Source: Kiritimatiellia bacterium
Lineage (GTDB): Bacteria; Verrucomicrobiota; Kiritimatiellia; RFP12; UBA1067
Direction of reading: 5' to 3'
DNA length: 34,569 bases
Assembly: GCA_017613085.1 (NCBI GenBank)
Contig: JAGAEL010000077.1
Location: 1-34,569, forward strand
This document shows positions 17,116 through 30,184 of this stretch, piece after piece. Both the position numbers and the translations under genes were made by a program. The notes under the pieces were generated by a model. It did no database searches, was not told the DNA's origin, and saw nothing but the letters and a program-made list of their open reading frames with translations. Every line of letters begins with the position of its first letter. The first letter of the stretch is position 1.

Positions 17116-18213
17116 ATGCGCATCCTTTCCCGATACATCCTGCACGAGTTCCTGGTTCCGTTGACGTTCTGCCTGACGGGCTTCATCGGCATCTACGTGA
17201 TGTTCGAGTTGTTCCAGTCCTTCCAGCGCCTTCTGGAAACCAAGCCTTCGACGTGGACGGTGGTCGCGTTTTTCGCCGGGTATCTAAGCCCCTACCTCCA
17301 GTGGCTAGTCCCCGCCGCGCTGATGCTCGCCACGCTGTACACCATGTGGAATTTCTGCCGGCACAGCGAAGTCACGGCGATGCGCGCGAGCGGCGTCGGT
17401 TTCTCTTCGATCGTCGCGCCGATCCTGACCGTCGCCGCCTGTTTCGCCATCGGCGTGGCCCTCGTGAACGAATACTACGCGCCGTCCGCCTCAGAATGGG
17501 CGAAGAACTTCCGGGCGGCCCGCTTCCGCCCGCTCGACTCGAAACTCTACACCAACGTCCCCTACTACAACCAGAAGGCGCACCGCATCTGGCGCGTGGA
17601 CAAGATGGACACGCGCACCCCGAACCTCTTGCAGGGCGTAAAGATTTCCATTGACCGCCCGGACGGGAGCCGCGACGTGGATATCGCCTGTCGCAAGGCG
17701 GAGTACCTTGACGGCGAATGGTGGCTCTCCTACCCGCAATACCAGTATTTCGACGAATTGAACAACCCCATCGCGAATCCGACGCCCGCGTTGGCGCACC
17801 TCATGATCCGTTCCTTCCCGGAGTTCGACGAAACGCCGCGCGATTTCCTGTTGATGAACAAGCCGTGGGAATACTACACCGCGCGCGACATGGTGCATTA
17901 CCTGAAGAACCACAAGAACTTGAAGCCCGTCGAACGCGCCTCCAAGGTCTACGACCTGTGCAACCGGTTCGCGATCCCGTTCTCCTGTCTCATCATCACC
18001 CTCTTCGCCATTCCGGCCGGCGTGGCGACAGGACGCCAGAGCGTTTTCAAAGGGGTGATTTTCGCGGTCGGCATGTTTTTCGCCTTCTATGCGTTCAGCA
18101 TCGGCTGCATGGTCTTGGCGAAAAACGGATTGCTGCCCCCGCTAGCCGCCGCATGGTTCCCGAATCTGCTTTTCCTCGGAATCGGCCTCTTCCTTTTCCA
18201 CCGCCAGCGCTAA
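17116..18213 (+). CDS. LptF/LptG family permease (LPS export)
   Basis: A YjgP/YjgQ-family protein that forms, with its partner, the membrane part of the LptB2FG ABC exporter extracting lipopolysaccharide from the inner membrane. The 365 residues show the usual plan: N-terminal RILSRYILHEFLVPLTFCL with three hydrophobic segments by residue 125 (including MRASGVGFSSIVAP), a large periplasmic beta-jellyroll-type domain (about 130-285), and three C-terminal transmembrane segments (FAIPFSCLIITLFAIPAGVATG, then two more). The motif TAMRASGV is characteristic. Only one of the F/G pair is here, so I do not assign F or G. There is no Shine-Dalgarno: the start lies directly after the promoter. Confidence 0.9.
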   Translation: MRILSRYILHEFLVPLTFCLTGFIGIYVMFELFQSFQRLLETKPSTWTVVAFFAGYLSPYLQWLVPAALMLATLYTMWNFCRHSEVTAMRASGVGFSSIVAPILTVAACFAIGVALVNEYYAPSASEWAKNFRAARFRPLDSKLYTNVPYYNQKAHRIWRVDKMDTRTPNLLQGVKISIDRPDGSRDVDIACRKAEYLDGEWWLSYPQYQYFDELNNPIANPTPALAHLMIRSFPEFDETPRDFLLMNKPWEYYTARDMVHYLKNHKNLKPVERASKVYDLCNRFAIPFSCLIITLFAIPAGVATGRQSVFKGVIFAVGMFFAFYAFSIGCMVLAKNGLLPPLAAAWFPNLLFLGIGLFLFHRQR

Positions 18214-18233: not shown

Positions 18234-19403
18234 ATGCGTGACATACGGCGAGATGTGATACACCACATAGGCCGCCGCTGCCGCGAGTGGGACTACAGCG
18301 GCCGGGCAATCTACATGATCACCATAAGCCTACGGACACGCGGCAAACCGGTACTGGCGGACTGGCCCAGTATTCAGAGTTCCGGCGATGTCCTGCGCTC
18401 TGCCGGAAACGGTGGAGTTATCTCCATGCCCCTCACCGCCTTAGGTGAAAAGGTGCTTGCCTGTTGGCGGCGGATACCCGAATTCTGGCCGATGGTCGAG
18501 TTACTGGCATACCAGGTGATGCCCGACCACTTCCACGGCCTACTCTTCGTAAAGGACACCCTAATCAGGAAGACCCTTGGCGATGTGATTCGCGGCTTCA
18601 AGACGGGCTGCCGCGAAGTTGGCTGGGAAGAGGGGTATGTGGATAACATCCTCTTCCGCGAGGGGCAGCTCAGGCGCATGGCCGACTACATCCTCGACAA
18701 CCCGCGCCGCCTCGCCGAAAAGCGCGCCAACCCCTCGCTTTTCCGCCGTGTACTGGACTTGGAAGTAAGCCTCCCCGTTTCCGGCGGTGCGCACAACCAG
18801 AAGCCCTGCGCTCCGGCGGAAACGCCGGAGTTTATCACCGCCCACTTTTCGGCCATCGGCAACACCGCGCTTTTACGCTGGCCGGTGGCCCTGCAGGTGC
18901 AGTGTTCGCGCGCCGACTTCAGGTACAGGCGCGAGCGACTGGCGAACGGCGGCTGGAAGATCCTTCGCGACAGCTCCGACGTGCCGCTCGTGGAATACAC
19001 CTCACCCGCATTTGAGGAGAAATGCGAAGACACCCTGCGGTGCGCCCAAAACGGTGCCGTGCTGATAAGCCCCTGCATCTCCCATGGAGAGCGTGAAATC
19101 ACCCGCCGCGCCCATCTCGCAGGGGCGCGGATAATCGCCCTACGCAACAAGGGCTTTGCGAAATTCGAGAAGCCAAACGGTGCGCTCTTCGACCAGTGCG
19201 CCAAGGGCAACCTGCTCTTGCTCGCGCCTGCCGCATGGCCTTACATCCCCGGCGAGAAACCGCCCACACGCGAAACCTCACTCGTACTCAACCGTATCGC
19301 GCAACTCCTCGCCGGAGAGGGCGCCGCCGACATTGACTATCATGGCGTGGTCTTTAAAGATATCGACGCCAAGGTCTTCGCGGCCGTACGCAGTGTTACT
19401 TGA
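18234..19403 (+). CDS. RAYT-like HUH (Y1) transposase with C-terminal DprA/SLOG-like domain
   Basis: The N-terminal part is a Y1-type HUH nuclease of the REP-associated tyrosine transposase kind: hydrophobic strand IYMITISLRTRGKPV, HUH motif MPDHFH (H99, H101), and the candidate nucleophile Tyr152 in ADYILDNPRR. Residues about 255-389 form an additional domain with VLISPCISHGEREI, ARIIALRN and GNLLLLAPAAWPY, resembling Rossmann-type DprA/SLOG proteins (inferred, not proven). The same two-part layout recurs at 29092-30168. Two in-frame palindromic elements interrupt the protein at residues about 55-62 and 193-199. The ATG at 18234 follows the Lpt gene by 20 nt, so it is probably read through from that promoter. 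Confidence 0.82.
   Translation: MRDIRRDVIHHIGRRCREWDYSGRAIYMITISLRTRGKPVLADWPSIQSSGDVLRSAGNGGVISMPLTALGEKVLACWRRIPEFWPMVELLAYQVMPDHFHGLLFVKDTLIRKTLGDVIRGFKTGCREVGWEEGYVDNILFREGQLRRMADYILDNPRRLAEKRANPSLFRRVLDLEVSLPVSGGAHNQKPCAPAETPEFITAHFSAIGNTALLRWPVALQVQCSRADFRYRRERLANGGWKILRDSSDVPLVEYTSPAFEEKCEDTLRCAQNGAVLISPCISHGEREITRRAHLAGARIIALRNKGFAKFEKPNGALFDQCAKGNLLLLAPAAWPYIPGEKPPTRETSLVLNRIAQLLAGEGAADIDYHGVVFKDIDAKVFAAVRSVT
18391..18417. repeat. REP-like hairpin, family 1, copy A (inside transposase gene)
   Basis: An 8-bp stem (18398-18405 with 18410-18417) closes a GAAA loop, preceded by tcctgcg. It matches copy B at 22 of 27 positions; the differences keep the stem (one C-G to G-C swap and two G-U/Watson-Crick changes). 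A preceding TTCCGGC (18380-18386) can also pair with GCCGGAA (18402-18408). Confidence 0.7.
18804..18830. repeat. REP-like hairpin, family 1, copy B (inside transposase gene)
   Basis: A perfect 8-bp stem, ctccggcg (18811-18818) with cgccggag (18823-18830), around GAAA, preceded by ccctgcg. It aligns with copy A and is likewise preceded by a tttccggcg stretch (18778-18786) and followed by tttatc. It is translated in a different codon phase from copy A. Confidence 0.75.
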
Positions 19404-27072: not shown

Positions 27073-28170
27073 TTAATCCTGCTGCTTCAACAGATATCGA
27101 TTGGAAACGACTTTGAAATGCGTGTCGTCGATACCGTCAGAGGCTTTCATAACGATTCCCTCCCGCTCGTTTCCGCGAGCGGTTTTGCCTTCGGCGAATT
27201 TGAGCGCATCCTCCATCGTTGCAAGCGTGTCGAAGAAAGGAAAATCCATTTCCAGCACCTGGACGTGCGGAATTCCAAGCTGCTTGCAAAACGCTACGCG
27301 CTCCTTCGGCATCATAAACCGTTGCGCCGTAATATCCCAGATCCGGAAAACATGGAATTCAAAGTCGGTGTATCGGTCCCGGTCTGCGTTTATACCGGGA
27401 CCGACCAGTTCGCCTTGCAACGCCAATTCCTGTTTCGTCGCATCGTAATGCTTTTTTAATTTCGTTTCTATGTCGTCTTTCGACACCACTTGCCAGAACG
27501 CCGCCCCTTTTTCACCCTCCGCCGGACGCTTCAAGCGGAGATTCCGGGAACAGACGCCGAAAGGGTCAACGGTATCGATTTCGGGAGAAAAGAAGATCGT
27601 AGCGGAGGAACCGTCATCTTTTGCGGTCACCTCGAACAGGCGTCCCTTCATGGTGGTAAAATAATCGGTCAAACCCTGAAGACGTTCCTCGTCGCTTTTC
27701 GGAATCAAAGACGGAAAGTCCCCCATCGCCTCGGCGTTGAGCGGATTGCCCATCGCTGGCTGGAGCATTTCTTTGACTTCATCGTAGTGATCGACCTTGA
27801 GCAAAGACGTCAAATCCGTTCCGATCTCCCTACCTTCGGCTTCGGGGAACTTCGAAACGGGCATAAGTAACCCTTGGGAAATCACACCTCGCAGTTTCGC
27901 CGTCTTGATACGGATCCCTTCGCGAAGGACACTGCCGCCTTTTGAAACGAACCGCCGCAAACACCGTTCACGTAAAAAGGCGTAACGGGCATCATCCGGG
28001 GGCAGATAGCTGTCGATTTCAAAATAAACGGCGATATCGCCGGGGGTAAACTCATCACGTCCGGTGACAACACGCCACCCCTTGCCCACCATCGTCGCGA
28101 CGGACAACCGCTCCGTATCCGGTATCGGATCACACGAGGCAATCTCCACAATCGATGCCAATTTCCTCAT
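27073..28170 (-). CDS. RNA ligase (DRB0094/Rnl5-like family)
   Basis: A 365-residue nucleotidyltransferase-superfamily RNA ligase, probably ATP-dependent, that seals 5'-phosphate/3'-OH ends or nicks. Motif I, the adenylated lysine, is TAKDDGSSA (KxDG), preceded by an N-terminal OB-fold-like domain (about 1-150) as in the Deinococcus-type enzyme. Other core motifs include VCSRNLRLKRP, ALQGELVGPG, EGIVMKASDG (motif IV) and HFKVVSNRYLLK (motif V). AGGAG sits 7 nt before the ATG at 28170. It follows the epimerase gene by 22 nt, so it is probably the last gene of the surface-sugar operon, which is an unexpected place for an RNA repair enzyme. Repair versus modification activity is not deducible here. 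Confidence 0.88.
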   Translation of the reverse strand: MRKLASIVEIASCDPIPDTERLSVATMVGKGWRVVTGRDEFTPGDIAVYFEIDSYLPPDDARYAFLRERCLRRFVSKGGSVLREGIRIKTAKLRGVISQGLLMPVSKFPEAEGREIGTDLTSLLKVDHYDEVKEMLQPAMGNPLNAEAMGDFPSLIPKSDEERLQGLTDYFTTMKGRLFEVTAKDDGSSATIFFSPEIDTVDPFGVCSRNLRLKRPAEGEKGAAFWQVVSKDDIETKLKKHYDATKQELALQGELVGPGINADRDRYTDFEFHVFRIWDITAQRFMMPKERVAFCKQLGIPHVQVLEMDFPFFDTLATMEDALKFAEGKTARGNEREGIVMKASDGIDDTHFKVVSNRYLLKQQD

Positions 28171-28192: not shown

Positions 28193-29095
28193 TTACCTTG
28201 CCGACAAACGAATCGCCTCTTCGATGTCGATCTTGATCTTTAAATTTAACTCGGATGTCGCCCTCTTGACGACAGGGACATATACCGACGGGCGTTGCGT
28301 TGTCGGCTCGCCTTTGACACAAATCGCATTCCCGCGACCCAAAACCTTACTGACTTTTTCAGCCAGCTGTTTAATCGTCAAAGCAACATCCGACCCAACG
28401 TTATAAGGTCTACAAGACACCCCTCGCTCAAGTATGGCGAACAGCCATTCCACCAGGTCATCGGCATAAAGATAACTGCGATAAGGCGTTCCATCGCCGT
28501 TGATGACAATCGGTTTCCCGTCAAGGCAGTTCTGGATGAAGTTGCCGATGGCATAGTGGATACCACGGTTGAGATACGGCCCTGTAAATGCGAAACAACG
28601 GGCGATCTTGACCTCAAGACCGGAATCGACAAGCAAGTTTTCCGCTGCAAGCTTTCCCTTGCCGTACGCCGTCACCGGTACACATTCGTCATCTTCATGC
28701 GATGGCGACGTGCGCGGTCCATACACGGCCCCTGAACTTGTGAACAACAGCGTCGAGCAATCGGCAGACTTTGCGAACTCAACGACACGCCGTACCCCAT
28801 CGAGAATGACACTCGTCATTTCTTCGTCGGAAAGCGTCGTGACGGCACTCGTGGCGGCATGGATGATGGCGTCGAAATGTCCTTCGGGGAAAGTAAAGTC
28901 GCGCACGTCACCGGCAACAAACGAGAACCCCGGCTGGTTGGCAAGGCGGGGGTTCTCCGCAACAAACCTTTCGGGCGAACGCGAAAGCACAACCCACTCA
29001 CTCTCCGCCCATCGCCATTCAGGGTGGCGTAGCCGATAATCAAGTATGGACTTACCGAAGAACCCCGTGCCGCCGGTGATGAAGAGGCGTTTCAT
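28193..29095 (-). CDS. NAD-dependent epimerase/dehydratase or reductase (extended SDR)
   Basis: A 300-residue extended SDR with nucleotide loop GGTGFFGK, AATSAVTTL, SSGAVYGP and catalytic YGKGK (YxxxK), followed by ARCFAFTGPYL and PYNVGSD. It resembles nucleotide-sugar epimerases and 4-ketoreductases. Because of the RfbH-like and TPP enzymes upstream, a reductase for a branched CDP-hexose (YerF-like role) is a reasonable guess, but the substrate is not seen. Its start overlaps the RAYT-like stop by 4 nt (ATGA), so translation is coupled. The region has lower GC than the rest of the window. Confidence 0.85.
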   Translation of the reverse strand: MKRLFITGGTGFFGKSILDYRLRHPEWRWAESEWVVLSRSPERFVAENPRLANQPGFSFVAGDVRDFTFPEGHFDAIIHAATSAVTTLSDEEMTSVILDGVRRVVEFAKSADCSTLLFTSSGAVYGPRTSPSHEDDECVPVTAYGKGKLAAENLLVDSGLEVKIARCFAFTGPYLNRGIHYAIGNFIQNCLDGKPIVINGDGTPYRSYLYADDLVEWLFAILERGVSCRPYNVGSDVALTIKQLAEKVSKVLGRGNAICVKGEPTTQRPSVYVPVVKRATSELNLKIKIDIEEAIRLSAR

Positions 29096-30168
29096 AGGCC
29101 ACCTTTCTTGGCCATAACATGCGGCCCATCAGCCTTCCAGTAGAGCGACAGCCCGTCTCCCGCCGTGGCAATTTCTATTATCTCGGCGTTTATGTCAAGG
29201 CAGATACCGCGCCCAAAGGCGACTTCATCATTTCCTCGCCCGATCTCAAGGCAGCGTCCCTCCGCAAACGGCGTAACGTATACGCTCTCCGGTTTGAAAC
29301 GCCTGTTCGGTATACAGGATGGCAACATCCTTATAAAACGGGCATTTCTCCTTCGGCAGAGCATATCGCGAACCGCCCTTTCACCTTTCGAGATAAAGCC
29401 GCTGATTACCACATACCCCTTGTCAACAGCAGATTCGAACCGCTTCACAACCTTGGAGATGGCCTCAGGCGAAACCACTTCGCGAGACACACGTAACGAC
29501 ACCATCTTGATGTCGGGGTCTAAGAGCGCGAGATTTCCTACACCTTTCCAGTAGTCGCCGATACTGAGGCGCGGCGAACAAAGCGGCTCCACAACGCGGA
29601 GCGAATGGGCCGTACCGTACATCACCTCCCACTTCAGCGGATTGTAAGCGATGTAGCGCTCGGTTGAATCGATCATCTCACGAGAAATCAGAATATAATC
29701 GTGATAGCCCTGTTGCCATAATTGGCTGGTTTGACCGAGCGCAGACCGCCCATCGCTGCTAGATGCCCCCTCGACATCACGCATCATGTCAGCATTGGCC
29801 ACACCCATAACATTGATGGCCAAACTATGTTTGGCCAACTTGGTTGTATAGTTCTTGAACCGCCTAATCGCATTCCCGAGCATTTTCAGAGGCTCGTGAA
29901 GCCCCGGCAAGAGGGCGCAGTTGAAGTGAACATGGTCGGGCATCACCACGTGGCCGAAAAGCAAAATCCCCCTGTTAAGGAGCGGAATCGCCTCTATCGC
30001 CTCCTTCACCTTCCCGCCCAGCGGAGAGAGTGCTACCTCTCCATTCACCACCTTGCCAAAGAGTGGCTGCCTCGGCGCGGTCGCGATCGTGATGAAGAGC
30101 GACGCGCCTTTCGCGTAGTCCCAGCCCTTGAACCGCCGGTAACGCCTTATCTCGCCGCCCTTCTCCAT
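29092..30168 (-). CDS. Second RAYT-like HUH (Y1) transposase with C-terminal domain
   Basis: A diverged homologue of the protein at 18234-19403, 358 residues, with start MEKGGEIRRYRRFKGWDYAKG. The HUH motif is MPDHVH (H79, H81), and the candidate nucleophile Tyr172 is in STERYIAYNPLKW. The C-terminal half shares GNLALL and the GFISKGER motif with the first copy (SPCISHGER). Between FKNYTTK (residue 110) and LWQQGYHD (150) is an extra stretch of about 38 residues that begins with a REP-like palindrome. The ATG at 30168 has AAGGGGGG upstream; a TTG at 30174 is less likely. It is embedded in the sugar operon, overlapping the next gene by ATGA. Confidence 0.82.
   Translation of the reverse strand: MEKGGEIRRYRRFKGWDYAKGASLFITIATAPRQPLFGKVVNGEVALSPLGGKVKEAIEAIPLLNRGILLFGHVVMPDHVHFNCALLPGLHEPLKMLGNAIRRFKNYTTKLAKHSLAINVMGVANADMMRDVEGASSSDGRSALGQTSQLWQQGYHDYILISREMIDSTERYIAYNPLKWEVMYGTAHSLRVVEPLCSPRLSIGDYWKGVGNLALLDPDIKMVSLRVSREVVSPEAISKVVKRFESAVDKGYVVISGFISKGERAVRDMLCRRRNARFIRMLPSCIPNRRFKPESVYVTPFAEGRCLEIGRGNDEVAFGRGICLDINAEIIEIATAGDGLSLYWKADGPHVMAKKGGL
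29811..29838. repeat. REP-like palindrome, family 2, internal copy
   Basis: A 9-bp stem, tggccaaac (29817-29825) with gtttggcca (29829-29837), around a TAT loop, flanked by cattga. It lies inside the second RAYT-like gene, coding residues 111-117 (LAKHSLA). Confidence 0.8.
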
Positions 30169-30184
30169 TAACAACCCCCCTTAG

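Follow-up and report, generated by a model that had tools for sequence, protein, structure and literature searches.

The RAYT-like gene and its surroundings

The window, by which is meant the whole stretch of 34,569 nucleotides from a rumen bacterium analysed here, carries at positions 18234 to 19403 of the + strand a gene for a RAYT-like HUH (Y1) transposase of 389 amino acids (P0001), which was recognised through NCBIfam, profile and fold matches. P0001 matches the NCBIfam family NF047646 (REP_Tyr_transpos) with E=3.5e-7, a score under the curated cut-off, and comparison of P0001 with Pfam and PHROGs gave no match; among 12 homologues, three matched the Pfam family Y1_Tnp, P0001 itself not being one of them. 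A profile built from 12 P0001 homologues led to the ISDra2 TnpA structures 2xma, 2xm3 and 2xo6 at E of about 1e-3, and the top Foldseek match in the PDB for the predicted fold of P0001 is a RAYT-REP complex (4er8; E=1.4e-3, probability 1.00), this RAYT bound to its REP hairpin also being the closest fold for the HUH part of the model. The HuH motif DHFH lies at residues 98-101 (18525 to 18536, + strand), where H99 and H101 are invariant in 12 homologues, and the putative catalytic tyrosine is Y152 (18687 to 18689, + strand) in the motif YILDNP, where Y152, N156 and P157 are likewise invariant in 12 homologues. P0001 thus has the HuH motif and the single tyrosine followed by xxxNP (DHFH; Y152-ILDNP) of RAYT/TnpAREP proteins, together with kinship in fold and sequence to solved RAYT and Y1 transposases, and is, as judged from its sequence and predicted structure, RAYT-like.

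The HUH core is followed by a C-terminal domain of about 185 residues (approximately residues 205-389; 18846 to 19400, + strand), which forms a conserved block in 12 homologues and is conserved across the RAYT family of P0001. The full-length model matched the DprA structures 4ljr and 4ljl with a probability of 0.99 but with E of 0.06-0.1, and ShosA (8zva) was matched in a likewise weak manner. Assignment of a DprA-like domain was dropped, as the likeness was seen with the full-length model only and the domain folded alone gave no match; in the model, this part of P0001 is possibly DprA/Rossmann-like, which is a lead only. A literature search for a RAYT joined to a DprA domain found none, its matches being incidental.

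An LptF/LptG permease gene on the same strand (window positions 17116 to 18213) precedes the RAYT gene, 20 nt separating the two. A second, distant RAYT-like homologue of 360 amino acids, with 26% identity over the HUH part, is encoded at 29092 to 30174 of the - strand, and a gene near it (window positions 27073 to 28170) codes for RNA_ligase and PHA02142 OB-fold domains. Type I restriction-modification loci contain or adjoin the RAYT gene in some relatives (L066, L070 and L162, the last at G106:C11). A constant link with type I restriction was considered from L066, L070 and G106:C11 and rejected, given that the window gene instead follows LptF/LptG.

Two related hairpins within the reading frame

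Two hairpins lie within the RAYT frame. Hairpin A (18391 to 18420, + strand) has a foot at 18391-18396, arms at 18397-18405 and 18410-18418 and the loop GAAA at 18406-18409, while hairpin B (18804 to 18833, + strand) has its foot at 18804-18809, its arms at 18810-18818 and 18823-18831 and the same loop GAAA at 18819-18822. An earlier note on this DNA had described two 27-nt stretches here, TCCTGCGCTCTGCCGGAAACGGTGGAG in A (18391-18417) and CCCTGCGCTCCGGCGGAAACGCCGGAG in B (18804-18830), and these were confirmed to be identical at 22 of 27 positions. Both pair fully around GAAA over 8 bp, or 9 bp when an outer G-T pair is counted, and the four differences between the stems all stay paired (C-G to G-C, T-G to C-G and G-T to G-C). 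Two 8-bp GAAA hairpins were obtained in none of 2000 dinucleotide shuffles of the RAYT gene (mean 0.0005 per shuffle), and a pair of 27-mers with at least 22 identities in none of 60.

The copies had been said to be translated in different codon phases, which holds, although the phases given (positions 3 and 2) do not: counted from the gene start at 18234, the first nucleotide of A is in codon position 2 and that of B in position 1. The encoded peptides differ, as had been noted, being LRSAGNGG in A and PCAPAETPE in B. Openness of the 27-nt unit in all six frames was considered and set aside as not special, since 26.5% of random 27-mers at 63% GC are likewise open. In the AlphaFold model of P0001, whose confidence is moderate (mean pLDDT 71.5), pLDDT falls below 50 at site A (residues 50-60) and site B (residues 185-196), such that both hairpins sit in predicted low-confidence loops. 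As single-stranded DNA, hairpin A is wobble-rich and weak, its minimum-energy fold (-7.1 kcal/mol) keeping the inner 4 bp alone; hairpin B forms its 8-bp stem (-11.5 kcal/mol).

Variable sites in the homologous genes

Homologues were sought in 115 genomes belonging to the same family, as well as in GTDB contigs, and the aligned RAYT homologues, whose named sources are rumen and gut MAGs of Kiritimatiellae, Lentisphaerae and Verrucomicrobia, are about 41-76% identical to P0001 over their best stretch. Relative to P0001 they carry 1510 inserted residues at only 11 of 388 positions, chiefly residues 130 (746 inserted residues), 46 (275), 189 (170) and 111 (126). Site M, between HuH and the tyrosine (residues 123-134; 18600 to 18635, + strand), thus holds 746 of the 1510 in homologues and is hairpin-free in the window gene. 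Segment lengths range across the homologues from 14 to 157 amino acids at site A, from 10 to 75 at M and from 12 to 86 at B, and near-empty versions of the hairpin sites exist. In the homologous genes of related Kiritimatiellae and Lentisphaerae, many hairpins of a single family are found in-frame, in both orientations and in several codon phases, mostly at a few sites.

The two nearest relatives differ from the window gene in this respect. The nearest, L067, has a 21-nt hairpin insertion just after HuH which the window gene does not have, and L066 has hairpin arrays in both orientations at sites A and B. It had been proposed that A and B are in-frame insertions on the ground that the homologue at 29092-30174 appears to have gaps there; at 26% identity this comparison is weak evidence, and the real evidence comes from close relatives, in which length variation at the same sites, including near-empty homologues, and the L067 insertion missing from the window bear out the proposal. 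The search for homologues without the segments, suggested as a check, likewise found near-empty sites among the aligned homologues.

Two further arrangements were seen in relatives. At the 3' end of the L067 RAYT gene (L067:4110-4260) there are 2-3 hairpin copies, apparently after a frame shift relative to P0001. At site A of another homologue (L071:3140-3550), the 18-nt unit TCCTGTTCTTCGCCTGTG is repeated about 22 times in-frame, each unit carrying the foot and the 5' arm, with the last one completing a GAAA hairpin.

A hairpin family with covarying stems

The family unit consists of a 5' foot, TTCTG(C/T), followed by a 9-bp stem, in most cases with GC at its start and GT at its end, around a tetraloop. 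Covariation was assessed in a gap-free alignment of 36 in-gene or gene-adjacent hairpins from homologous genes, where 95.7% of pair cells hold standard pairs, a fraction raised by the collection itself, which took only hairpins that had the foot and no fewer than 7 of the 9 pairs. Eight of the nine pairs have changes on both sides, and the covariation score is 0.772, as opposed to 0.222 (sd 0.026) for shuffled alignments and no more than 0.208 when the structure is slid; because events are shared between related genes, there are fewer independent events than cells. Foot columns 3-5 (CTG) are invariant in the 36 hairpins, CTG having been part of the collecting motif. In a control free of this selection, RAYT open reading frames contained 94 hairpins with the motif versus 30 with the reversed motif, and RAYT flanks 85 versus 72. 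The strong stem covariation among these hairpins of homologous genes upholds the earlier note's view that constraint acts on nucleic-acid structure and not on the peptide.

These results bear on whether the variable segments could be GC-rich low-complexity linkers expanding by replication slippage, the hairpins being a by-product of inverted repeats. Tandem arrays do exist (the 18-nt unit of L071, about 22 times, as well as L044 and L048), and the hairpin sites are predicted loops, as would be expected of such linkers; slippage alone, though, does not yield a conserved foot, covarying stems and both orientations, nor the excess over the reversed-motif control (94 versus 30 in RAYT open reading frames), and this explanation is highly improbable.

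The loops of the homologues fall into the classes GAAA, CGTG, CTTG, GGCA, TTYT, ATT, GCCA and AAAG. On a RAYT tree built without the variable sites, loop class tracks RAYT clade, requiring 14 changes as compared with a mean of 25.4 when shuffled (none of 200 shuffles as low), with classes assigned by hand and 12 of 39 homologues in no class. These 12, having no clear cognate hairpin, count against reading the hairpins as cognate substrates of the enzymes.

Distribution across genomes

The wider search used two covariance models, whose E-values all come from a shortened calibration: R1, run on 115 genomes, with training that partly overlaps the loci found, and R2, built without A, B, L066, L067 and L071, that is, with the window's nearest relatives left out. 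In 56.6 kb of sequence, this leave-clade-out model recovered both hairpins, B with E=4e-5 and A with E=0.004. Immediately upstream of B, at 18767 to 18796 of the - strand, R1 also gives a weak match in the window (E=0.66; 11.6 bits), which does no more than hint at a third copy, degenerate and inversely oriented.

All of the genomes are MAGs, and the window's own (G000) is 67% complete. A scan of it for the exact 27-nt pattern with up to three mismatches found no further copy beyond A and B. All three R1 matches in this genome lie in RAYT genes, as do all four R2 matches with E of at most 0.5, A being found only at E=0.17. The earlier suggestion that the hairpins belong with a RAYT is thus in keeping with every model match in this 67% complete genome, while its expectation of many genomic copies failed there, with 3-4 matches, all in RAYT genes; dispersed copies occur in G023 and some other genomes.

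When G023 is set aside, 109 R1 matches are listed, of which 61 are at RAYT loci (no more than 1.3 kb from a RAYT segment), and 27 of these 61 come from 13 loci not used in training R1. This concentration at RAYT loci, along with the agreement between loop class and RAYT clade, argues for the hairpins being cognate to the enzymes. In G023, a genome of the same genus, the 41 listed R1 matches all lie elsewhere than at the RAYT genes, with R2 adding one in a RAYT gene on C269; hairpin and gene are thus not always together, which counts against that reading. The dispersed copies of G023 have the same foot and loop and are scattered, several of them near the ends of long open reading frames. A tandem hairpin array with a period of about 43 bp was also seen in this genome (L132, G023:C216:226-903), away from any detected RAYT. 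Dispersed copies are also present in G024, G037 and others, and at L162 (G106:C11) a family hairpin lies inside the reading frame of a type I restriction R-subunit (HsdR); the hairpin family in general is not confined to RAYT genes.

The dispersed copies in G023, G024, G037 and others and the HsdR case are what would be expected of a general genomic palindrome family, like the Rickettsia palindromic elements, for which RAYT genes are merely permissive sites and the enzyme has no role. Indifferent insertion of this kind would not be expected to place 61 of 109 matches outside G023 at RAYT loci, nor to make loop class follow RAYT clade, and such a family is quite an unlikely source for A and B. 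The same concentration in RAYT genes and the match of loops to RAYT clade, as if every RAYT read the gene that encodes it, could instead point to self-regulation, in which binding of the RAYT to hairpins of its gene or mRNA would keep its expression down, the hairpins being selected as a control element. Copy number, orientation and position vary greatly among close relatives, some homologues having none, where a control site would be expected to be more constant, and feet occur on both strands, whereas a site in the mRNA needs a single orientation; we consider self-regulation unlikely.

Relation to known REP systems

Quentin et al. (2018; PMC6006769) name in-frame REP insertions within tnpAREP genes as a trait of subclass 2.4, and although the earlier note was right that hairpins are present inside their own RAYT gene, this is not unprecedented. 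Like the window family, TnpAREP subclass 2.4 (RAYT group 4) has REP hairpins in its own tnpAREP gene with the frame unbroken, and its main variable site is between HuH and the tyrosine, like site M in homologues of the window gene (PMC6006769); in-frame insertions are found there in homologues, with none in the window gene. The two groups differ in motifs, subclass 2.4 having NH[IFV]H, WQ and YIxNNP (PMC6006769, Table 1) and the window gene DHFH, WEE and YILDNP; in the foot, GT[AG]G as opposed to TTCTG(C/T) in the window family; in domains, none after the core as opposed to a conserved C-terminal region of about 185 residues; and in sites, one main site as opposed to several, including one before HuH (A) and one after the tyrosine (B) (PMC6006769). 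In-gene REP insertion is therefore already known, and the window family is set apart from subclass 2.4 by its motifs, foot, domain architecture and extra sites.

REP, BIME and REPIN elements with their RAYTs share with the window family a short hairpin whose 5' foot is conserved and unpaired, an HUH tyrosine transposase and occurrence in both orientations, whereas classical REPs are high-copy, mostly extragenic and GTAG-bearing and the window family is low-copy and, in its own genome, found only inside RAYT genes (PMC8266576; PMC3116915; PMC2817692). The 5' GT[AG]G foot of the REP (GTAG superfamily) elements is absent from the window family, and their high, mostly extragenic copy number is not seen in G000 (67% complete). 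Rickettsia palindromic elements and other intragenic REPs are also palindromes lying in-frame in coding genes, but those of Rickettsia are spread over many unrelated genes, with no dedicated transposase known for them, in contrast to the clustering of the window family in RAYT genes (PMC3733652); insertion into many unrelated genes was not found for this family, the one clear non-RAYT gene elsewhere being HsdR at L162. A literature search for RAYTs of Kiritimatiellae found no description, most subscription journals being outside its reach.

Proposed origin of the in-gene hairpins

The best explanation, to which we give a probability of roughly three in four, is that A and B represent a REP-type hairpin for which the RAYT of this gene is the cognate enzyme, and which was inserted in-frame and then multiplied in permissive loops. 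It draws directly on the hairpin family, its covariation, its presence or absence in homologues, the common sites and the course of loop class along the RAYT phylogeny. Described RAYTs recognise folded single-stranded REP DNA by its foot, its loop or a bulge, cleavage taking place at CT (or CA) dinucleotides (PMC8266576), and by analogy the hairpin of A and B is probably a DNA hairpin recognised by the encoded RAYT, with the TTCTG(C/T) foot and the clade-specific loop as the likely recognition parts on single-stranded DNA. The stem would be free to drift by compensatory change, pairing alone being required. Copies would enter loops where the protein tolerates them, presumably by insertion of the hairpin into the gene, and would then multiply locally, in both orientations and in several codon phases, through cleavage and strand transfer by the RAYT or perhaps through slippage at hairpins. 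The reading frame would be held by purifying selection on the enzyme, the protein tolerating whatever the hairpins encode. Counting against this cognate REP-type reading are the foot, which differs from that of described REPs (no GT[AG]G), the weakness of hairpin A as DNA, the own genome at 67% completeness and the training of R1 on part of its loci.

A more far-reaching and rather doubtful suggestion is a self-contained transposase-hairpin unit, whereby some genomes would have cognate hairpins solely in the frame of their own RAYT, the main target of the enzyme would be its own gene, and its loops would be diversified by repeated insertion of the substrate.

The insertion of cognate hairpins proposed here would take in-gene REP insertions beyond the one RAYT subclass for which they are described, to an architecture that differs from it and has another foot motif. 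It would also provide natural pairs of gene and hairpin in which loop type follows enzyme clade, so that RAYT-REP recognition could be tested through loop swaps among clades, as well as a case in which a single stretch of DNA may be retained as structure and codons at once.
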